64,000 bases of DNA from Stygiobacter sp. RIFOXYC2_FULL_38_25 (GTDB lineage Bacteria > Bacteroidota > Ignavibacteria > Ignavibacteriales > Melioribacteraceae), in the NCBI GenBank assembly GCA_001803165.1, contig MHAZ01000009.1, forward strand, positions 62,001 to 126,000. The letters are read 5' to 3'. Position numbers and translations under genes: made by a program. This document shows, piece after piece, positions 40,170 through 50,659 of this stretch. Position 1 is the first letter of the stretch, and every line of letters begins with the position of its first letter. The notes under the pieces were generated by a model. That model worked only from the letters and a program-made list of their open reading frames with translations. It ran no database searches and was not told where the DNA came from.

Positions 40170-40347
40170 AACCCCACGATAAAGGGGCTGTGTGAAAATG
40201 ACCGAAAAGTTGGTAGGCGCAACTTTTAAGTTGCGGTTTTATTCAGGATACGCAAGCTGACCCGCTTCGCCAAGCGGCTTAGCGAGGCGAGAGCTTACGG
40301 CTACCATAAATAATTTGATATTAGCACAGACTCCAAATCGTGGGGTT
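40170..40347. repeat. Nested palindrome block 3 (AACCCCACG arms around a GGTAGSC two-hairpin repeat)
   Basis: Arms AACCCCACGAT (40170-40180) and ATCGTGGGGTT (40337-40347). The same arms are joined without insertion at 63874-63897. Inside, 40212-40305 is the inverted copy of the repeat at 28724. Its GCAAGCT-GA hairpin loop carries a further 31 bases (about 40261-40291), with CGCTTCGCCAAGCGGCTTAG, so three levels are nested. Confidence 0.8.
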
Positions 40348-40366
40348 GAAGCATAAAACAAACACT

Positions 40367-42988
40367 ATGATGAACCAGATAAAAACATTTTCCATCATAA
40401 CAATTCTTTTTTCTACTTTGTTGTTCGCTCAGCAGAAGGAAAGTGTTACCCCAATTTCTAAGCCGGATACTATTAAAACTATTATTGCAGATTCGCTCGC
40501 AGTACCGGATTCCACCAAACCTAAAAAACAATTTGATGTAGATGCAGTAATCAACGCCGCAGCTTCGGATTCGCTCATCTTCCAAGTAAAAAAGAAAAAA
40601 ATGTACTTGTACGGTTCCGGCGAATTGAAGTACAAGAGTACAGACTTGAAGAGCGCAAAAATTTTCATTGATTACCAGAAGAACGAACTGGAAGCATTCG
40701 GAATTGAAGATACATCCGATACCGCAAAAGTTAAGATGAAAGGTAATCCGCATTTAACCGAAGGCGGCGAAACATTTGAGGGAAGTTATATTCGTCATAA
40801 TTTCAAAACGCAGCGCGGATATATTTCTCTTGCTAAAAACAAAGATAAAGAGCAGCGTTACGAAGGGGAGAAAGTAAAGAAAGTTGATAAGTCAACTTTC
40901 TTCATAGAAGATGGGATGTTTACTTCGTGCGAAAGCGATACACCGCATACTTATTTTGCTGCTCACGAAATGAAAGTAATGCAGAAAGATAAAATTATTG
41001 CAAAGTGGATTTTCATGTATATCGGCGGAGTTCCGCTTCCAATTCCAATTCCGTTTGCTGTAATACCAAATGAAAGCGGAAGACGTTCGGGAATTATTAT
41101 TCCCGGTTACGGACAAGACAGAGATCGTGGTCAGTATTTTTATAACTTCGGTTATTTTTGGGCAATGAGTGATTACATGGATTTGGCTTTAACCGGAGAT
41201 TACTACACTAAAGGAGGATGGGGTGCGCGCAGCCGTTACCGTTATGCTAAAAGGTATGATTTCAACGGTTCATTCAATGTAGGATTTTCAAGACTTGATA
41301 TTGGTGAGCCTAACGATCCGGTAAAGAATCAACGCGATGATTGGAATTTATCTTGGAATCATTCTCAACAATTTGATCCGACTTCTCAGTTCAGTGCCAA
41401 TTTACAATTCGTTTCCAGTAATTATTTGAGAGAGAATAGTATAGACTACAATACCATCCTAACTCAACAAATTGTCTCTGGCGCAAATTTTTCGAAAAAC
41501 TGGGAGAACTCAAATATATCATTGAACTACAGTAGAACACAGTCGTTAGATACCACGCTTGTGAGTGAGTCCTTTCCGAATATTAATTATTCGCAAAATG
41601 TTTTCTATCCTTTCAGAAGGGAAAATTCCTTTGCAGATGGAAAACAAAAATGGTACGAGTTAATAGGAATTTCATATTCCGGGCAATTCTCCAGAACTAA
41701 TCAGAAGGACGCTGTTAAATCCAAGTCAGATATGGGCGCTCAACACAATATAAATCTTAATTTTTCTCCAAAGGTTGGATACATAAATGTTTCTCCGACT
41801 TTTAGTTACCAAGAAAAATGGTACAACAAACGTTTGAAGTTGGAACCGGCTAGGTATGAACATTTTTACCCGAACGGTAAAAGCGAAATGCGCGATACAG
41901 TTCTTGATACTTCTGTTAAAGAATTGAACTTTGTACGCACATTCAGCATGGGAGTTTCAGCTTCAACAAAAATTTATGGAGTAATGAATCCGAATCTTCT
42001 TGGAGTAGAATCTTTCCGCCACACTTTAACGCCAAGTGTTTCATATAACTACCAGCCCGATTTCTCAGATGATAAATGGGGCTACTATGATTCCTATATT
42101 GACTCGACTGGCAAAAAAGTTAGATATGATAAATTTACTAGAGAGGTATTTCAAGGTGTAAATGGAGGAAGAAGTCAGAGCATAAATTTTTCTTTAGGAA
42201 ATGTTTTTGAAATTAAGATGGCAAAAACTCCCGGCGATACAACGAAGGAGCAGAAGAAAATTCAACTGCTGAATTTTGATGCAAGTGTAGGTTACAATTT
42301 TGCTGCCGATAGTATGAAACTTCGCGATCTTAGTTTGAGCTACAGAACTCAAATCGGTGATATTATAAATTTCTCCGGTTCTTCCTCTTACACTTTTTAC
42401 GATCAAATTGTAGAAACCAATCAATATGGTCAGGAAACTTACCGGTATGTAAATCAATATTTGGCATCGAATGGTAAAGGACTTTTTAGGCTAACGAACT
42501 TGAACTTTTCAATTTCTTCAACTTTAAGCGGCGAGAAACTAAAATCAAGCGAGGCTGAAAAACAAAAAAATCCGGAAGCAAATGAGGATCAAGTTGCGAT
42601 AAAGAAGAAGGACTTTATTGCTTTGTACGATGATTCACAAGCGCCCGATTTATCAATTCCGTGGAATTTGAGTCTGAGTTATAATTATAATTTTTCAAAA
42701 CCCAACCCAAAGGAATCTGATATCTTTTCCAATATTAGCGCAGATCTTGGTTTCAGCTTAACTAAGAATTGGAAGTTTACTGTGCGCGGCAGTTACGATT
42801 TTCAAGAGAAGAAAATATCTGCGCCGCAGATTACCGTTTACCGGGATTTGCATTGTTGGGAAATGAATTTCTCTTGGAATCCACTTGGTAGTTACAGCGG
42901 CTTCCGTTTCGAAATAAGAATGAAAGCGCCGGAACTGCAAGACATAAAAGTTACAAAGTCTGATGGTATGTACTCGGGGAGAAGATAA
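40367..42988 (+). CDS. LptD-like outer-membrane LPS assembly protein
   Basis: I use ATG 40367, which begins a signal peptide (TFSIITILFSTLLFAQ); a GTG at 40340 lies in the repeat arm. About 873 residues. The N-terminal part resembles OstA/LptA-like repeats (YLYGSGELKYKSTDLKS, IFIDYQKNELEA), followed by GGVPLPIPIPFAVIPN and a C-terminal beta-barrel of aromatic-rich strands. LptD inserts LPS into the outer leaflet. In Ignavibacteria-type cells the exact lipid cargo is not known from sequence. Assignment rests on the motif order and length. Confidence 0.8.
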   Translation: MMNQIKTFSIITILFSTLLFAQQKESVTPISKPDTIKTIIADSLAVPDSTKPKKQFDVDAVINAAASDSLIFQVKKKKMYLYGSGELKYKSTDLKSAKIFIDYQKNELEAFGIEDTSDTAKVKMKGNPHLTEGGETFEGSYIRHNFKTQRGYISLAKNKDKEQRYEGEKVKKVDKSTFFIEDGMFTSCESDTPHTYFAAHEMKVMQKDKIIAKWIFMYIGGVPLPIPIPFAVIPNESGRRSGIIIPGYGQDRDRGQYFYNFGYFWAMSDYMDLALTGDYYTKGGWGARSRYRYAKRYDFNGSFNVGFSRLDIGEPNDPVKNQRDDWNLSWNHSQQFDPTSQFSANLQFVSSNYLRENSIDYNTILTQQIVSGANFSKNWENSNISLNYSRTQSLDTTLVSESFPNINYSQNVFYPFRRENSFADGKQKWYELIGISYSGQFSRTNQKDAVKSKSDMGAQHNINLNFSPKVGYINVSPTFSYQEKWYNKRLKLEPARYEHFYPNGKSEMRDTVLDTSVKELNFVRTFSMGVSASTKIYGVMNPNLLGVESFRHTLTPSVSYNYQPDFSDDKWGYYDSYIDSTGKKVRYDKFTREVFQGVNGGRSQSINFSLGNVFEIKMAKTPGDTTKEQKKIQLLNFDASVGYNFAADSMKLRDLSLSYRTQIGDIINFSGSSSYTFYDQIVETNQYGQETYRYVNQYLASNGKGLFRLTNLNFSISSTLSGEKLKSSEAEKQKNPEANEDQVAIKKKDFIALYDDSQAPDLSIPWNLSLSYNYNFSKPNPKESDIFSNISADLGFSLTKNWKFTVRGSYDFQEKKISAPQITVYRDLHCWEMNFSWNPLGSYSGFRFEIRMKAPELQDIKVTKSDGMYSGRR

Positions 42989-43034
42989 CCTTAAGCATAG
43001 AATTGGGTTCTCACTTAAACTTCTTAATCTACTG

Positions 43035-43588
43035 ATGGAAAAGTTTAAAGATACTTTTAGAGTTGAAACAACCAGATTAAAAGAATGGGATTATTCGAAT
43101 CCTTGGTGGTATTATGTAACCATAAACACCAAAGACCATGTAGAACATTTTGGTAAAGTTGAGAATGAGAAAATGCTGCTAAACGAGATAGGTAAGATAG
43201 TCGATGAATATTGGAATCAGATTCCGAAGCATTTCAAGCTGACAGAATTAGATTCTTATGTAGTTATGCCAAATCATGTTCATGGAATAATTATTATTAA
43301 TGAGACACAGAATGTAGAGACATGCCATGGCATGTCTTTGCAAACCAATAAGAACGAATTCTCGAAACCAGTAAAGAATTCATTATCTGTAATTGTTAAT
43401 CAATTTAAAGGTGCTGTTAAACGCTATTGTAATAAATGCAATGCTGAAAAGTTCGAATGGCAAAGGGGATTCTACGATCGATAATCAGAAATGAAAAAGA
43501 ATTGTTTAACATTAGAAAATACATTGAACAGAATCCGCTTAGATGGGATTTAGAGAAAAACCAGCGTGAAAATATTTGTGAAGTATAA
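43035..43588 (+). pseudogene. RAYT (REP-associated tyrosine transposase), frameshifted
   Basis: Y1-transposase family: WWYYVTINTKDHVEHFG, the HUH-type MPNHVHGIIII and EWQRGFYDR. The frame meets TAA at 43482. If one base is restored near 43479-43480, the frame continues IIRNEKELFNIRKYIEQNP to a stop at 43588, the expected C-terminus. So a one-base deletion broke the gene or it is a sequencing error. At 43316-43339 the gene carries an in-frame copy of a palindrome (product NVETCHGMSLQTN). Confidence 0.8.
43316..43339. repeat. REP palindrome inside the RAYT gene
   Basis: AGAGACATGCCATGGCATGTCTTT, a 24-base palindrome with one mismatch, in frame between the HUH region and the C-terminal helix. 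Same family as 43606-43629. Confidence 0.8.
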
Positions 43589-43605
43589 TTGTGATCTATA
43601 AACTC

Positions 43606-43629
43606 AGAGACTTGCCATGGCAAGTCTCT
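43606..43629. repeat. REP palindrome after the RAYT gene
   Basis: AGAGACTTGCCATGGCAAGTCTCT is a perfect 24-base palindrome, followed by ACAAAA. It lies 18 bases after the restored RAYT stop. Confidence 0.85.
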
Positions 43630-43636
43630 ACAAAAA

Positions 43637-43951
43637 CTACTCAAACTCAATTATAAGCTGGTTTTTGGTAACCATTTCTCCGGCGGAAATTTTCACCTCT
43701 TTAATCTTTCCATCAATATGAGAAGTAACAGTATTCTTCATCTTCATAGCTTCAAGAGTAAGAAGTTTTTGTCCTTCTGTTACTGATTGTCCCGGTTTAA
43801 CAAGTATATCTCTAATGATTCCCGGAATGAACGCGTTCAAATGTTTTGGATTCGGCGCTTCATATTTTTTACGCAGACGAAACTTACGCGTAAGCTTCGT
43901 TTCATAAACGGTGTCATCAATTACGAGTTGGTTCTGTTTTAATTCTGCCAT
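43637..43951 (-). CDS. Biotin carboxyl carrier protein of an acyl-CoA carboxylase or decarboxylase
   Basis: 104 residues with a biotinyl domain. The biotin-accepting lysine is Lys70 in EAMKM, preceded by the lipoyl/biotinyl fold pattern AFIPGIIRDILVKPGQSV. It starts 3 bases after the carboxyltransferase stop, so the two genes are one transcript. It shuttles carboxyl groups between carboxylase and transferase. No biotin carboxylase gene is in the window. Confidence 0.9.
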   Translation of the reverse strand: MAELKQNQLVIDDTVYETKLTRKFRLRKKYEAPNPKHLNAFIPGIIRDILVKPGQSVTEGQKLLTLEAMKMKNTVTSHIDGKIKEVKISAGEMVTKNQLIIEFE

Positions 43952-43954
43952 AGT

Positions 43955-45499
43955 TTAAAAAGGTGGGATTCCATGTTTCTTAGCCGGACGAGATTCTTTC
44001 TTCTGTGCGGATAAGTTTAATGTATGAATTAAGATTCTTCTTGTTTCTTCCGGATTGATAACCGCATCAATATAACCGTTTGCAGCGGCAACATAAGGAT
44101 TAGCAAACTTCTCCGTGTATTCTTTTACTTTCTGCTGGCGCATAGCGTTCGGGTCAGCTGCAGTAGTAATTTCATTTTTGAAAATGATATTAGCTGCGCC
44201 TTCCGGTCCCATTACTGCAATTTCAGCAGTCGGCCAAGCGTAAACAAAGTCTGCACCGAGATGTCTTGAACACATTGCAATGTAACCGCCGCCGTAAGCC
44301 TTTCTCAAAATTACAGTCATTTTAAGAACTGTAGCTTCGCTGTATGAATAGAGCACTTTTGCACCGTGGCGGATAACACCCGCATGTTCTTGATCAACGC
44401 CCGGTAAGTAACCCGGAAGATCAACAAGTGTTAAGAGTGGAATATTGAAAGCATCGCAGAAACGGATGAAACGCGCAGCTTTGTTTGATGAATCTACATC
44501 CAAAACTCCGGCTAAAACTGCCGGCTGATTACCTATGATTCCAACCGACTGCCCGTTTAATCTGGCAAAGCCTATCACAATGTTTGCCGCCCAATACTGC
44601 TGAACTTCAAAGAAATCGGAATCATCAACAATAGAATAAATAACATCTCGAATGTCATACGGTTGTGTTGGATCGGAAGGAATAATTTTCTCAATAAAGT
44701 ATTCCGGCTTTGGTTTCTTAGGAGTATAAGGATCGGCTTTCTTTGCGTTATTCCAAGGAATATAAGAAAGCAGTTTTCTAATCTGCTCAAAACACTCATA
44801 TTCATCTCTGGCAAAAAAGTGTGCGTTTCCGGTCATCTCACTTTGGATTCTCGCACCGCCTAAATCTTCCATAGAAATTTCTTCGCCGAGAACAGTTTTA
44901 ATTACTTCCGGTCCTGTAATAAACATTTTGGAAATCTGATCAACAACGAACACAAAATCTGTTAGCGCAGGTGAATAAACAGCGCCGCCGGCACATGGTC
45001 CAAGTATTACAGAGATTTGAGGAATAACTCCGCTTGCTAAAGTATTGCGGTAGAAAATTTCGCCATAACCGGCTAAAGAGTTAACGCCTTCTTGTATTCT
45101 CGCACCACCGGAATCGTTAATACCAATCAGCGGAATTCCCATTTTGAGTGAATGATCCATAATCTTTGTGATTTTTCTGGCGTGAGCCAAACCTAATGAA
45201 CCGCCGGCAACAGTAAAATCCTGAGCGAAAATACACACCGGATGCCCGATAATTATGCCGGTTCCGGTTATAACGCCATCGGCGGCAAGCTCTTTCTTTT
45301 CCATTCCAAAATCTTTACCAGCATGTTTAACAAATAAATCGAATTCGAAGAAGGTACCGGGATCGAGCAGAGCATCAATACGTTCACGTGCAGTTAATTT
45401 ACCCGTGGCTTTTTGTTTTTGAATTGCTTTTTCTCCGCCGCCAACACTCATAGCTTCCTGGCGAAAGAGAAAATCTTTCAGCTTACTTAGAATAGACAT
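43955..45499 (-). CDS. Acyl-CoA carboxyltransferase (propionyl-CoA carboxylase beta / MmdA type)
   Basis: 514 residues of the biotin-dependent carboxyltransferase family. Motifs include GKLTARERIDALLDPGTF, the first oxyanion region GGARIQEGVNSLAGYG with ILGPCAGGAVYSPALTDF, and the second, RKAYGGGYIAMCSRHLGAD. Likely substrate is propionyl- or methylmalonyl-CoA. With the adjacent biotin protein it may form a carboxylase or, with membrane partners elsewhere, methylmalonyl-CoA decarboxylase. The 98 bases upstream show nothing clear. Confidence 0.9.
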   Translation of the reverse strand: MSILSKLKDFLFRQEAMSVGGGEKAIQKQKATGKLTARERIDALLDPGTFFEFDLFVKHAGKDFGMEKKELAADGVITGTGIIIGHPVCIFAQDFTVAGGSLGLAHARKITKIMDHSLKMGIPLIGINDSGGARIQEGVNSLAGYGEIFYRNTLASGVIPQISVILGPCAGGAVYSPALTDFVFVVDQISKMFITGPEVIKTVLGEEISMEDLGGARIQSEMTGNAHFFARDEYECFEQIRKLLSYIPWNNAKKADPYTPKKPKPEYFIEKIIPSDPTQPYDIRDVIYSIVDDSDFFEVQQYWAANIVIGFARLNGQSVGIIGNQPAVLAGVLDVDSSNKAARFIRFCDAFNIPLLTLVDLPGYLPGVDQEHAGVIRHGAKVLYSYSEATVLKMTVILRKAYGGGYIAMCSRHLGADFVYAWPTAEIAVMGPEGAANIIFKNEITTAADPNAMRQQKVKEYTEKFANPYVAAANGYIDAVINPEETRRILIHTLNLSAQKKESRPAKKHGIPPF

Positions 45500-49903: not shown

Positions 49904-49928
49904 GTAGGGGTTTCATTTATGAAACCCG
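49904..49928. repeat. GTAGGGG-type REP
   Basis: GTAG followed by GGGTTTCATTTATGAAACCC and G, 20 bases upstream of the RAYT start. Confidence 0.8.
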
Positions 49929-49947: not shown

Positions 49948-50460
49948 ATGACTCATGCTACTAGACAATATTACACCCCAAAAAAACAAACATTGCTCAA
50001 AAGGAAATCACTTCGCTTGCCAGGATACGATTATTCAAAAGGAAATTGGTACTATATCACAATATGTGTTGATAAAATGCAAGTGTTTTTCGGTGAAATT
50101 CATAACGAAAAAATGATTCAAAATGATTGTGGGGAAATTCTTTCTAATAACTGGAGTTATCTATCTCAACATTTTACTACTGTCTTACTAGATGAATTTA
50201 TAATAATGCCAAACCATCTTCATGGAATAGTGATTATTAACGAAGAGGACAATATCACACTTGGACAAATAGTTAGATTTCTTAAAGCAAGGACAACTAA
50301 ACTAATTCATGATGCTGGACTCAGAGACTTTAAGTGGCAAAGAAACTATTTCGAACATGTTATTAGGAACGAGAGCGATCTATACAATATTAGAAATTAT
50401 ATTAAGCAGAATCCTTTAAGGTGGCATTTAGAGAAGAATGAACACGTAAGCAATTGGTAA
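49948..50460 (+). CDS. RAYT (REP-associated tyrosine transposase), intact
   Basis: 170 residues of the Y1-transposase (IS200-like) family. Motifs are NWYYITICVDKMQVFFGE, the HUH pair in IIMPNHLHGIVII and the Tyr-bearing FKWQRNYFEHVIRNE, followed by LYNIRNYIKQNPLRW. RAYTs cut and paste REP palindromes as single strands. REPs of one type lie on both sides, so this gene is a likely source of that family. Unlike the copy at 43035 it has no frameshift. Confidence 0.9.
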   Translation: MTHATRQYYTPKKQTLLKRKSLRLPGYDYSKGNWYYITICVDKMQVFFGEIHNEKMIQNDCGEILSNNWSYLSQHFTTVLLDEFIIMPNHLHGIVIINEEDNITLGQIVRFLKARTTKLIHDAGLRDFKWQRNYFEHVIRNESDLYNIRNYIKQNPLRWHLEKNEHVSNW

Positions 50461-50471
50461 AGCATTTCATT

Positions 50472-50544
50472 GTAGGGGCTTTTTCATAAAGCCCGCAAAA
50501 ATGCAACCGTTTTTTAATAAGGGTTTGATAAATCAAACCCCTAC
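50472..50544. repeat. Inverted REP pair (BIME) after the RAYT
   Basis: GTAG plus GGGCTTTTTCATAAAGCCC at 50472-50494, then GGGTTTGATAAATCAAACCC plus CTAC at 50521-50544, in opposite orientation. Same unit as in block 4 at 32217. Confidence 0.85.
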
Positions 50545-50659
50545 TCAAAGAATTTTATACTGTTTGAAAATATTCGATAACGTAGAAATAGCCCCTTTTA
50601 AATTGAATTCCGCATAGCCAATCCCTATTTTGCATAACAAAAAAAAGAGCAGTTTAACT

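Follow-up and report, generated by a model that had tools for sequence, protein, structure and literature searches.

How RAYTs (REP-associated tyrosine transposases) recognize their REPs is an open question, as is the reason why some of them harbour REPs within the gene itself. We analysed a RAYT locus in a 64,000-nucleotide stretch of Stygiobacter sp. RIFOXYC2_FULL_38_25 DNA (contig MHAZ01000009.1, positions 62,001 to 126,000; hereafter the window). The original prediction described a RAYT gene at 43035-43629 that contains in frame a 24-base palindrome of the same family as the REP at 43606 and that has been broken separately by a one-base frameshift near 43480, and took this for a snapshot of a REP hitting its own source gene. 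The descriptive part of this account proved correct. The open reading frame at 43035-43484 matches Pfam Y1_Tnp and carries RAYT motifs: MPNHVHG fits the HUH motif NH[IFV]H, and WQRGFYDR contains WQ. At the place of the Y motif YIxNNP the sequence reads YIEQNP, one residue off, and lies in another frame owing to the frameshift. Both palindromes were found at their expected coordinates (Table 1), the two matches in the window comparing with 0.00 expected from 100 dinucleotide shuffles, and the sequence lacks a base between the codons for FYDR and those for IIRN (43478-43481).

Against the RAYT model NF047646 the truncated protein encoded by this reading frame scored 36.5 bits, which is below the curated cut-off of 80, and the intact paralogues (58.6-75.2 bits) likewise stayed below it. 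The model seems to be narrower than the group, and we therefore classified the gene by subclass features instead. It has the variable insertion between HUH strand and helix αC and the in-frame REP that characterize TnpA-REP subclass 2.4 (Bertels RAYT group 4, PMC6006769) and also shares with it the NHVH and WQ motifs, a flanking REP and the occurrence in Bacteroidota and Cyanobacteria, whereas the frameshift and the NCBIfam score below cut-off set it apart from the subclass norm. The gene can thus be regarded as a decayed RAYT of the HUH endonuclease family close to subclass 2.4, and the locus is, apart from its decay, an ordinary representative of a class already described. REPs in frame inside tnpA-REP genes of subclass 2.4, between HUH and Y, as well as double-foot REPs flanking these genes, are reported in the main text of Quentin et al. 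2018 (PMC6006769), where the insert is regarded as peripheral; the in-gene REP is therefore a known phenomenon. The RAYT gene is flanked by convergent genes, a large LptA/OstA-like protein being encoded upstream (40340-42988, plus strand) and a biotin carrier and carboxyltransferase-like pair downstream (43637-45499, minus strand).

Beyond the missing base the RAYT C-terminus (..IIRNEKELFNIRKYIEQNPLRW..) resumes in the other frame, and the stop codon therefore removes the catalytic Tyr, so that the copy in the window is expected from its sequence to be inactive. The missing base may be an assembly error rather than a true frameshift. The syntenic allele of a sister species reads open through the frameshift point.

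Table 1. Features of the RAYT locus in the window
Feature	Position	Strand	Remarks
RAYT pseudogene	43035..43589	+	Reading frame closed by the stop at 43482-43484; C-terminus encoded in a different frame up to 43589
Turn before the HUH strand, codons (VDEYWNQIPKHFKLTELDSYVV)	43200..43265	+	Columns N-25, -21 and -18 covary with the innermost REP base
Segment of REP, linker and αC that is unalignable with the sister-species RAYT	43308..43480	+	3' edge approximate, as the frameshift gap ends the alignment there
In-frame REP	Palindrome AGAGACATGCCATGGCATGTCTTT 43316-43339; full element about 43313-43342	+	GTAG foot 43314-43317; encodes VETCHGMSLQ
Helix αC, codons (LSVIVNQFKGAVKRY), putative REP-reading helix	43383..43427	+	Covariation; position inferred from alignment and paralogue model
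One-base loss relative to relatives, followed by in-frame stop TAA	43478..43484	+	From translations and the open sister allele
Downstream REP (TTGCCATGGCAA), same core group	Palindrome AGAGACTTGCCATGGCAAGTCTCT 43606-43629; element 43604..43632	-	Foot on minus strand

The in-gene and the downstream REP are 86% identical over 29 nt. As the foot of the downstream REP lies on the minus strand, this element is inverted relative to the in-gene REP; its CTAC foot is found at one side only (43628-43631), flanking REPs of subclass 2.4 having GTAG plus CTAC. REPs inside other genes have been described (Di Nocera et al. 2013, PMC3733652), and rickettsial palindromic elements and other in-gene REPs resemble the present one in being palindromic repeats that are read in frame in protein genes. 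They occupy scattered sites in unrelated host genes, however, while the present repeat lies at a constant site within the gene of its cognate transposase.

The RAYT-like places in the 4.4 Mb genome number eight. Besides the gene at 43035, three of them (L004, L005 and L008) contain an in-frame palindrome in the interval from HUH to αC, each with a different sequence, and L009 and L010 are remnants. L006 (G000:C21, about 541499-541954), likewise a remnant, has lost the HUH region and its frame is open across two palindromes, perhaps as the result of a deletion between repeats. The general double-foot pattern yielded 49 strand matches in the genome and 0 in the reversed control, and the cores of these REPs fall into types, one of which, GAGGCATGCCTC, is the in-gene type of L004. 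The commonest core, GCCATATATGGC, occurs at about 16 sites on contigs C1, C4, C6, C7, C11, C17, C20 and C21; no RAYT could be assigned to it within its own genome.

The survey of relatives comprised 260 distinct RAYTs from about 20 phyla in which the HUH and the W motif were both present; they came from 80 named genomic loci and from genomes belonging to the same genus, order or phylum. In pairwise comparisons among 195 genes, covering every pair, the similarity between palindrome cores was set against that of each 7-column protein window, the palindrome-encoded residues being kept outside these protein windows. Helix αC was placed by the motif [IVLAM][VIMAL]xx[FYLIW]K, and columns were numbered from the Lys of this motif. 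The AUC peaked at αC-4 to αC+2, with values of 0.941 for all genes, 0.954 for the discovery set and 0.927 for the replicate set, and was 0.935 in pairs that are less than 45% identical in the N-terminal core. Protein windows clear of this peak gave AUC values of about 0.37-0.82 across four sets, the highest of them (replicate set) reaching from the HUH strand into the beginning of the αC block, and the best N-terminal protein windows overall reached 0.72 (N-27 to N-12). Permutation maxima were 0.58 for random and 0.742 for within-clade permutation as compared to the observed 0.941, and we rejected phylogeny alone as the cause of the covariation on this ground.

Taken singly, columns αC-2, +1 and +2 share most information with REP base 3 from the centre and αC-3 with base 5, and N-25, -21 and -18 share most with base 1. 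Helix types pair with characteristic cores, namely RSYKSA with CGTTGC, GSFKSA with GAGGC, GACGC or GGGGC, RGFKIG with CAAAA or GAAAA, and RWYKGR with CGCGATT, the NQFKG helix pairing with two REP groups, CTTGCC and CGCCCGA. The helix of the window gene is VNQFKGA, and its nearest counterparts elsewhere, INQFKGA and INQFKGS, pair with CTTGCC..GGCAAG, CGCGCC..GGCGCG, CTCGCC..GGCGAG and CGCCCGATCGGGCG. Both window cores, CATGCC..GGCATG in the gene and CTTGCC..GGCAAG downstream, belong to the first group, TGCC..GGCA, and the locus thus unites the NQFKGA helix type with two REPs of the group that accompanies it elsewhere. When the palindromes of the replicate set were predicted from the closest helix of a distant discovery gene, the mean palindrome similarity was 0.27, whereas the N-core, the C-core and random choice gave 0.04, -0.05 and -0.03, respectively. 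Only 14% of the replicate palindromes were predicted in this way at a similarity above 0.7, and the helix code for REP type is partial.

A confident structural model of the paralogue L004, derived from an alignment with 99 relatives (pLDDT 88.5), has as its best PDB match 4ER8, a RAYT bound to a REP hairpin (E 6.8e-7). In this model the REP-encoded residues lie in a low-confidence loop after strand 85-92 and before helix 111-128, which corresponds to αC. E. coli TnpA-REP (4ER8; subclass 2.2) shares with these proteins the fold, the catalytic motifs and the DNA-binding helix α3, the equivalent of αC, but it has no REP in its gene, its REPs are bulged and the sequence identity is about 20%. In a profile alignment with 4ER8, αC+1 coincides with K82 of the E. 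coli enzyme (hand-counted, with Y115 and N119 checked), which is reported to contact the REP (PMC8266576); on helix contacts outside the E. coli enzyme this 2021 study offers speculation only. Judging from the sequences, αC is likely to read the REP physically. We found no earlier description of the αC-REP covariation in article texts, which comprised few subscription papers and neither bioRxiv preprints nor supplements, so that this absence is not proof; neither the covariation nor a replaced sister segment appears in the main text of PMC6006769.

The syntenic allele of the sister species shows which parts of the gene differ between alleles. In G004, a genome of the same genus, the biotin-carrier neighbour is 97% identical and an intact RAYT lies beside it. 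The window aligns with G004 over 42002-43307 (79%) and 43481-44600 (87%), the centre being unaligned, and at the protein level the identity is 76% in the N-terminus, 32% in the turn before HUH, 100% in HUH, 24% in insert and linker, 24% in αC and 72% in the C-terminus. The divergence between the alleles thus falls on the two segments for which covariation with the REP was seen. The downstream REP also differs between the window and G004, and that of G004 does not match its own in-gene palindromes, from which it follows that turnover is not perfectly concerted. G002 and G005 align on the biotin-carrier side only.

Overall, we consider it probable that αC reads stem or central bases of the REP and that REP and recognition segments turn over together. 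In the proposed mechanism αC, aided by the turn just before the HUH strand, would recognize the bases at the centre of the REP hairpin, the gene carrying a copy of a cognate REP in frame in the loop immediately before αC. The REP-linker-αC segment and the REPs around the gene would turn over together, so that genes at one site could switch REP type while the catalytic ends are kept; in the window a later one-base loss would then have removed the catalytic tyrosine. Recurrence and position of the in-gene REP, the covariation (extragenic REPs included) and the replaced segment between sister alleles were observed, whereas physical reading as the basis of the covariation is inferred, as is movement of the segment through recombination or REP-directed exchange. 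Taken further, subclass-2.4 RAYTs would possess an exchangeable specificity cassette of in-frame REP, linker and helix, in which about four residues (αC-3, -2, +1 and +2) together with the pre-HUH turn specify the central REP bases, a proposal that in our estimation has an even chance of being correct. If it is, the target is changed by swapping the cassette and, since the gene holds reader and target copy, a single gene could give rise to a new REP family after entering another host. We also considered the frameshift as a scar of cassette exchange, as the gap sits at the 3' edge of the replaced segment, and set this aside, because the position of the BLAST boundary may simply result from the gap.

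Selection on the in-gene copy itself is a separate matter. Between HUH and W, a palindrome with a score of at least 8 was present in 78% of the RAYTs in the discovery set and in 77% of those in the replicate set (260 RAYTs in all), as compared to 3% in codon shuffles, and at score 10 the values were 67%, 70% and 0.13%, respectively. The site is constant, between HUH motif and helix αC, and most palindromes are perfect; in the upstream part of the same genes none was found at score 10 (0/72). On the question of whether homologues have the insert as native sequence the answer is divided: an insert is common at that place, but the REPs differ and some genes, such as L007 and L097, have none. Two frames are used for the REP foot, one in 115 genes and the other in 36, while in 51 genes no foot was recognized; the third possible frame would give TAG. 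As the two frames yield different peptides, conservation of the insert at the peptide level is ruled out. On a quick tree of the protein ends, where counts are approximate and changes were counted without direction, there were at least 39 changes in presence, 25 in frame and 71 in REP type (143 genes, 21 types). The in-gene REP is thus frequent, fixed in place and quickly turned over. With 10 forward, 3 reverse and 95 symmetric cases, asymmetric in-gene REPs are too few to be used for strand bias. In L022, L025, L046 and L060 the loop between HUH and W is lengthened by tandem REP part-copies, examples being SVGTGRDAASVGTGRDAA, STGATSTGAT and NVETRHMNVDTQYM.

A RAYT might repeatedly drop its own REP into a permissive loop in which the copy has no function, as Quentin et al. 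2018 read it. This is compatible with αC reading the REP and differs only on selection of the copy. The loop is of low confidence and outside the core in the L004 model, the insert is missing from some relatives, it stands in two frames with many changes on the tree and several genes have multiple half-copies, all of which would be expected of tolerated insertions, whereas a single place in about 78% of genes from about 20 phyla, occupied mostly by perfect palindromes with no REPs elsewhere in the same genes (0 of 72 at score 10), would not; we regard the odds as balanced. Alternatively, selection might maintain the palindrome as an mRNA hairpin that regulates the RAYT or as a binding site through which the enzyme restrains its own gene. 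That the palindrome but not the peptide is kept agrees with this, and hairpin control of IS200-type transposases is mentioned in PMC3733652, yet control of this kind would be unusual from the middle of a gene and about 22% of the genes lack the insert, and we consider this explanation unlikely.

In-gene palindromes also match the REPs beside their own genes, scoring on average 15.1 against their own flanks and 8.0 against the flanks of other loci (z 20.7), and the same core was found in and beside the gene in 45 of the 88 loci with a flanking REP, as compared to 2.6% between loci. The covariation with αC could arise from linkage only, i.e. palindrome and αC, which lie about 40-130 bases apart and are replaced as part of one segment in the sister allele, might be inherited as a block, the association then being silent on recognition. 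Several results argue against this. For REPs wholly outside the gene the AUC again peaked at αC (0.80, and 0.82 in distant pairs; best αC-free protein window 0.70). In 55 genes without in-gene palindrome the type predicted from αC fits the flanks with 0.734 versus 0.655 for random types, 11 of the 55 reaching rank p ≤ 0.05. They include L007, the second RAYT in the window (49948-50460, plus strand), which is intact, has a short HUH-W interval and lies between palindromes on both sides (about 49904-49927, 50472-50494 and 50516-50545); from its helix RFLKAR the type TTTGATTAATCAAA is predicted, and one of the flanking REPs has the sequence GGGTTTGATAAATCAAACCC. Among close pairs, with rows containing the fragment L092 left out, αC identity was 0.93 with the same and 0.51 with a different REP, the corresponding values for the C-terminal core being 0.79 and 0.70. 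Moreover, the HUH strand (N-15 to N-3), equally near on the other side of the palindrome, gave an AUC of only 0.54-0.56, although it is less informative as a control because it is more conserved, and the K82-aligned column is among the most informative ones. Linkage as the sole cause is therefore improbable. It contributes nonetheless, as the in-gene REP adjoins αC, and may add to the in-gene signal, since the extragenic and no-insert signals are weaker.

A single recent REP insertion caught inside its source gene, as originally envisaged, would suit the few differences between the in-gene and downstream REPs but has next to no chance of being true and is ruled out as a snapshot by the survey, about 78% of the 260 relatives having a palindrome at the same protein position, three more RAYT genes of the same genome also carrying one, and the class having been described in 2018.

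If the covariation of REP and αC is physical, the in-gene REPs constitute a ready table of reader helix versus target hairpin and might serve as a starting point for hairpin-specific single-strand nucleases. A hairpin that tracks one short helix suggests a readable code for DNA target choice.
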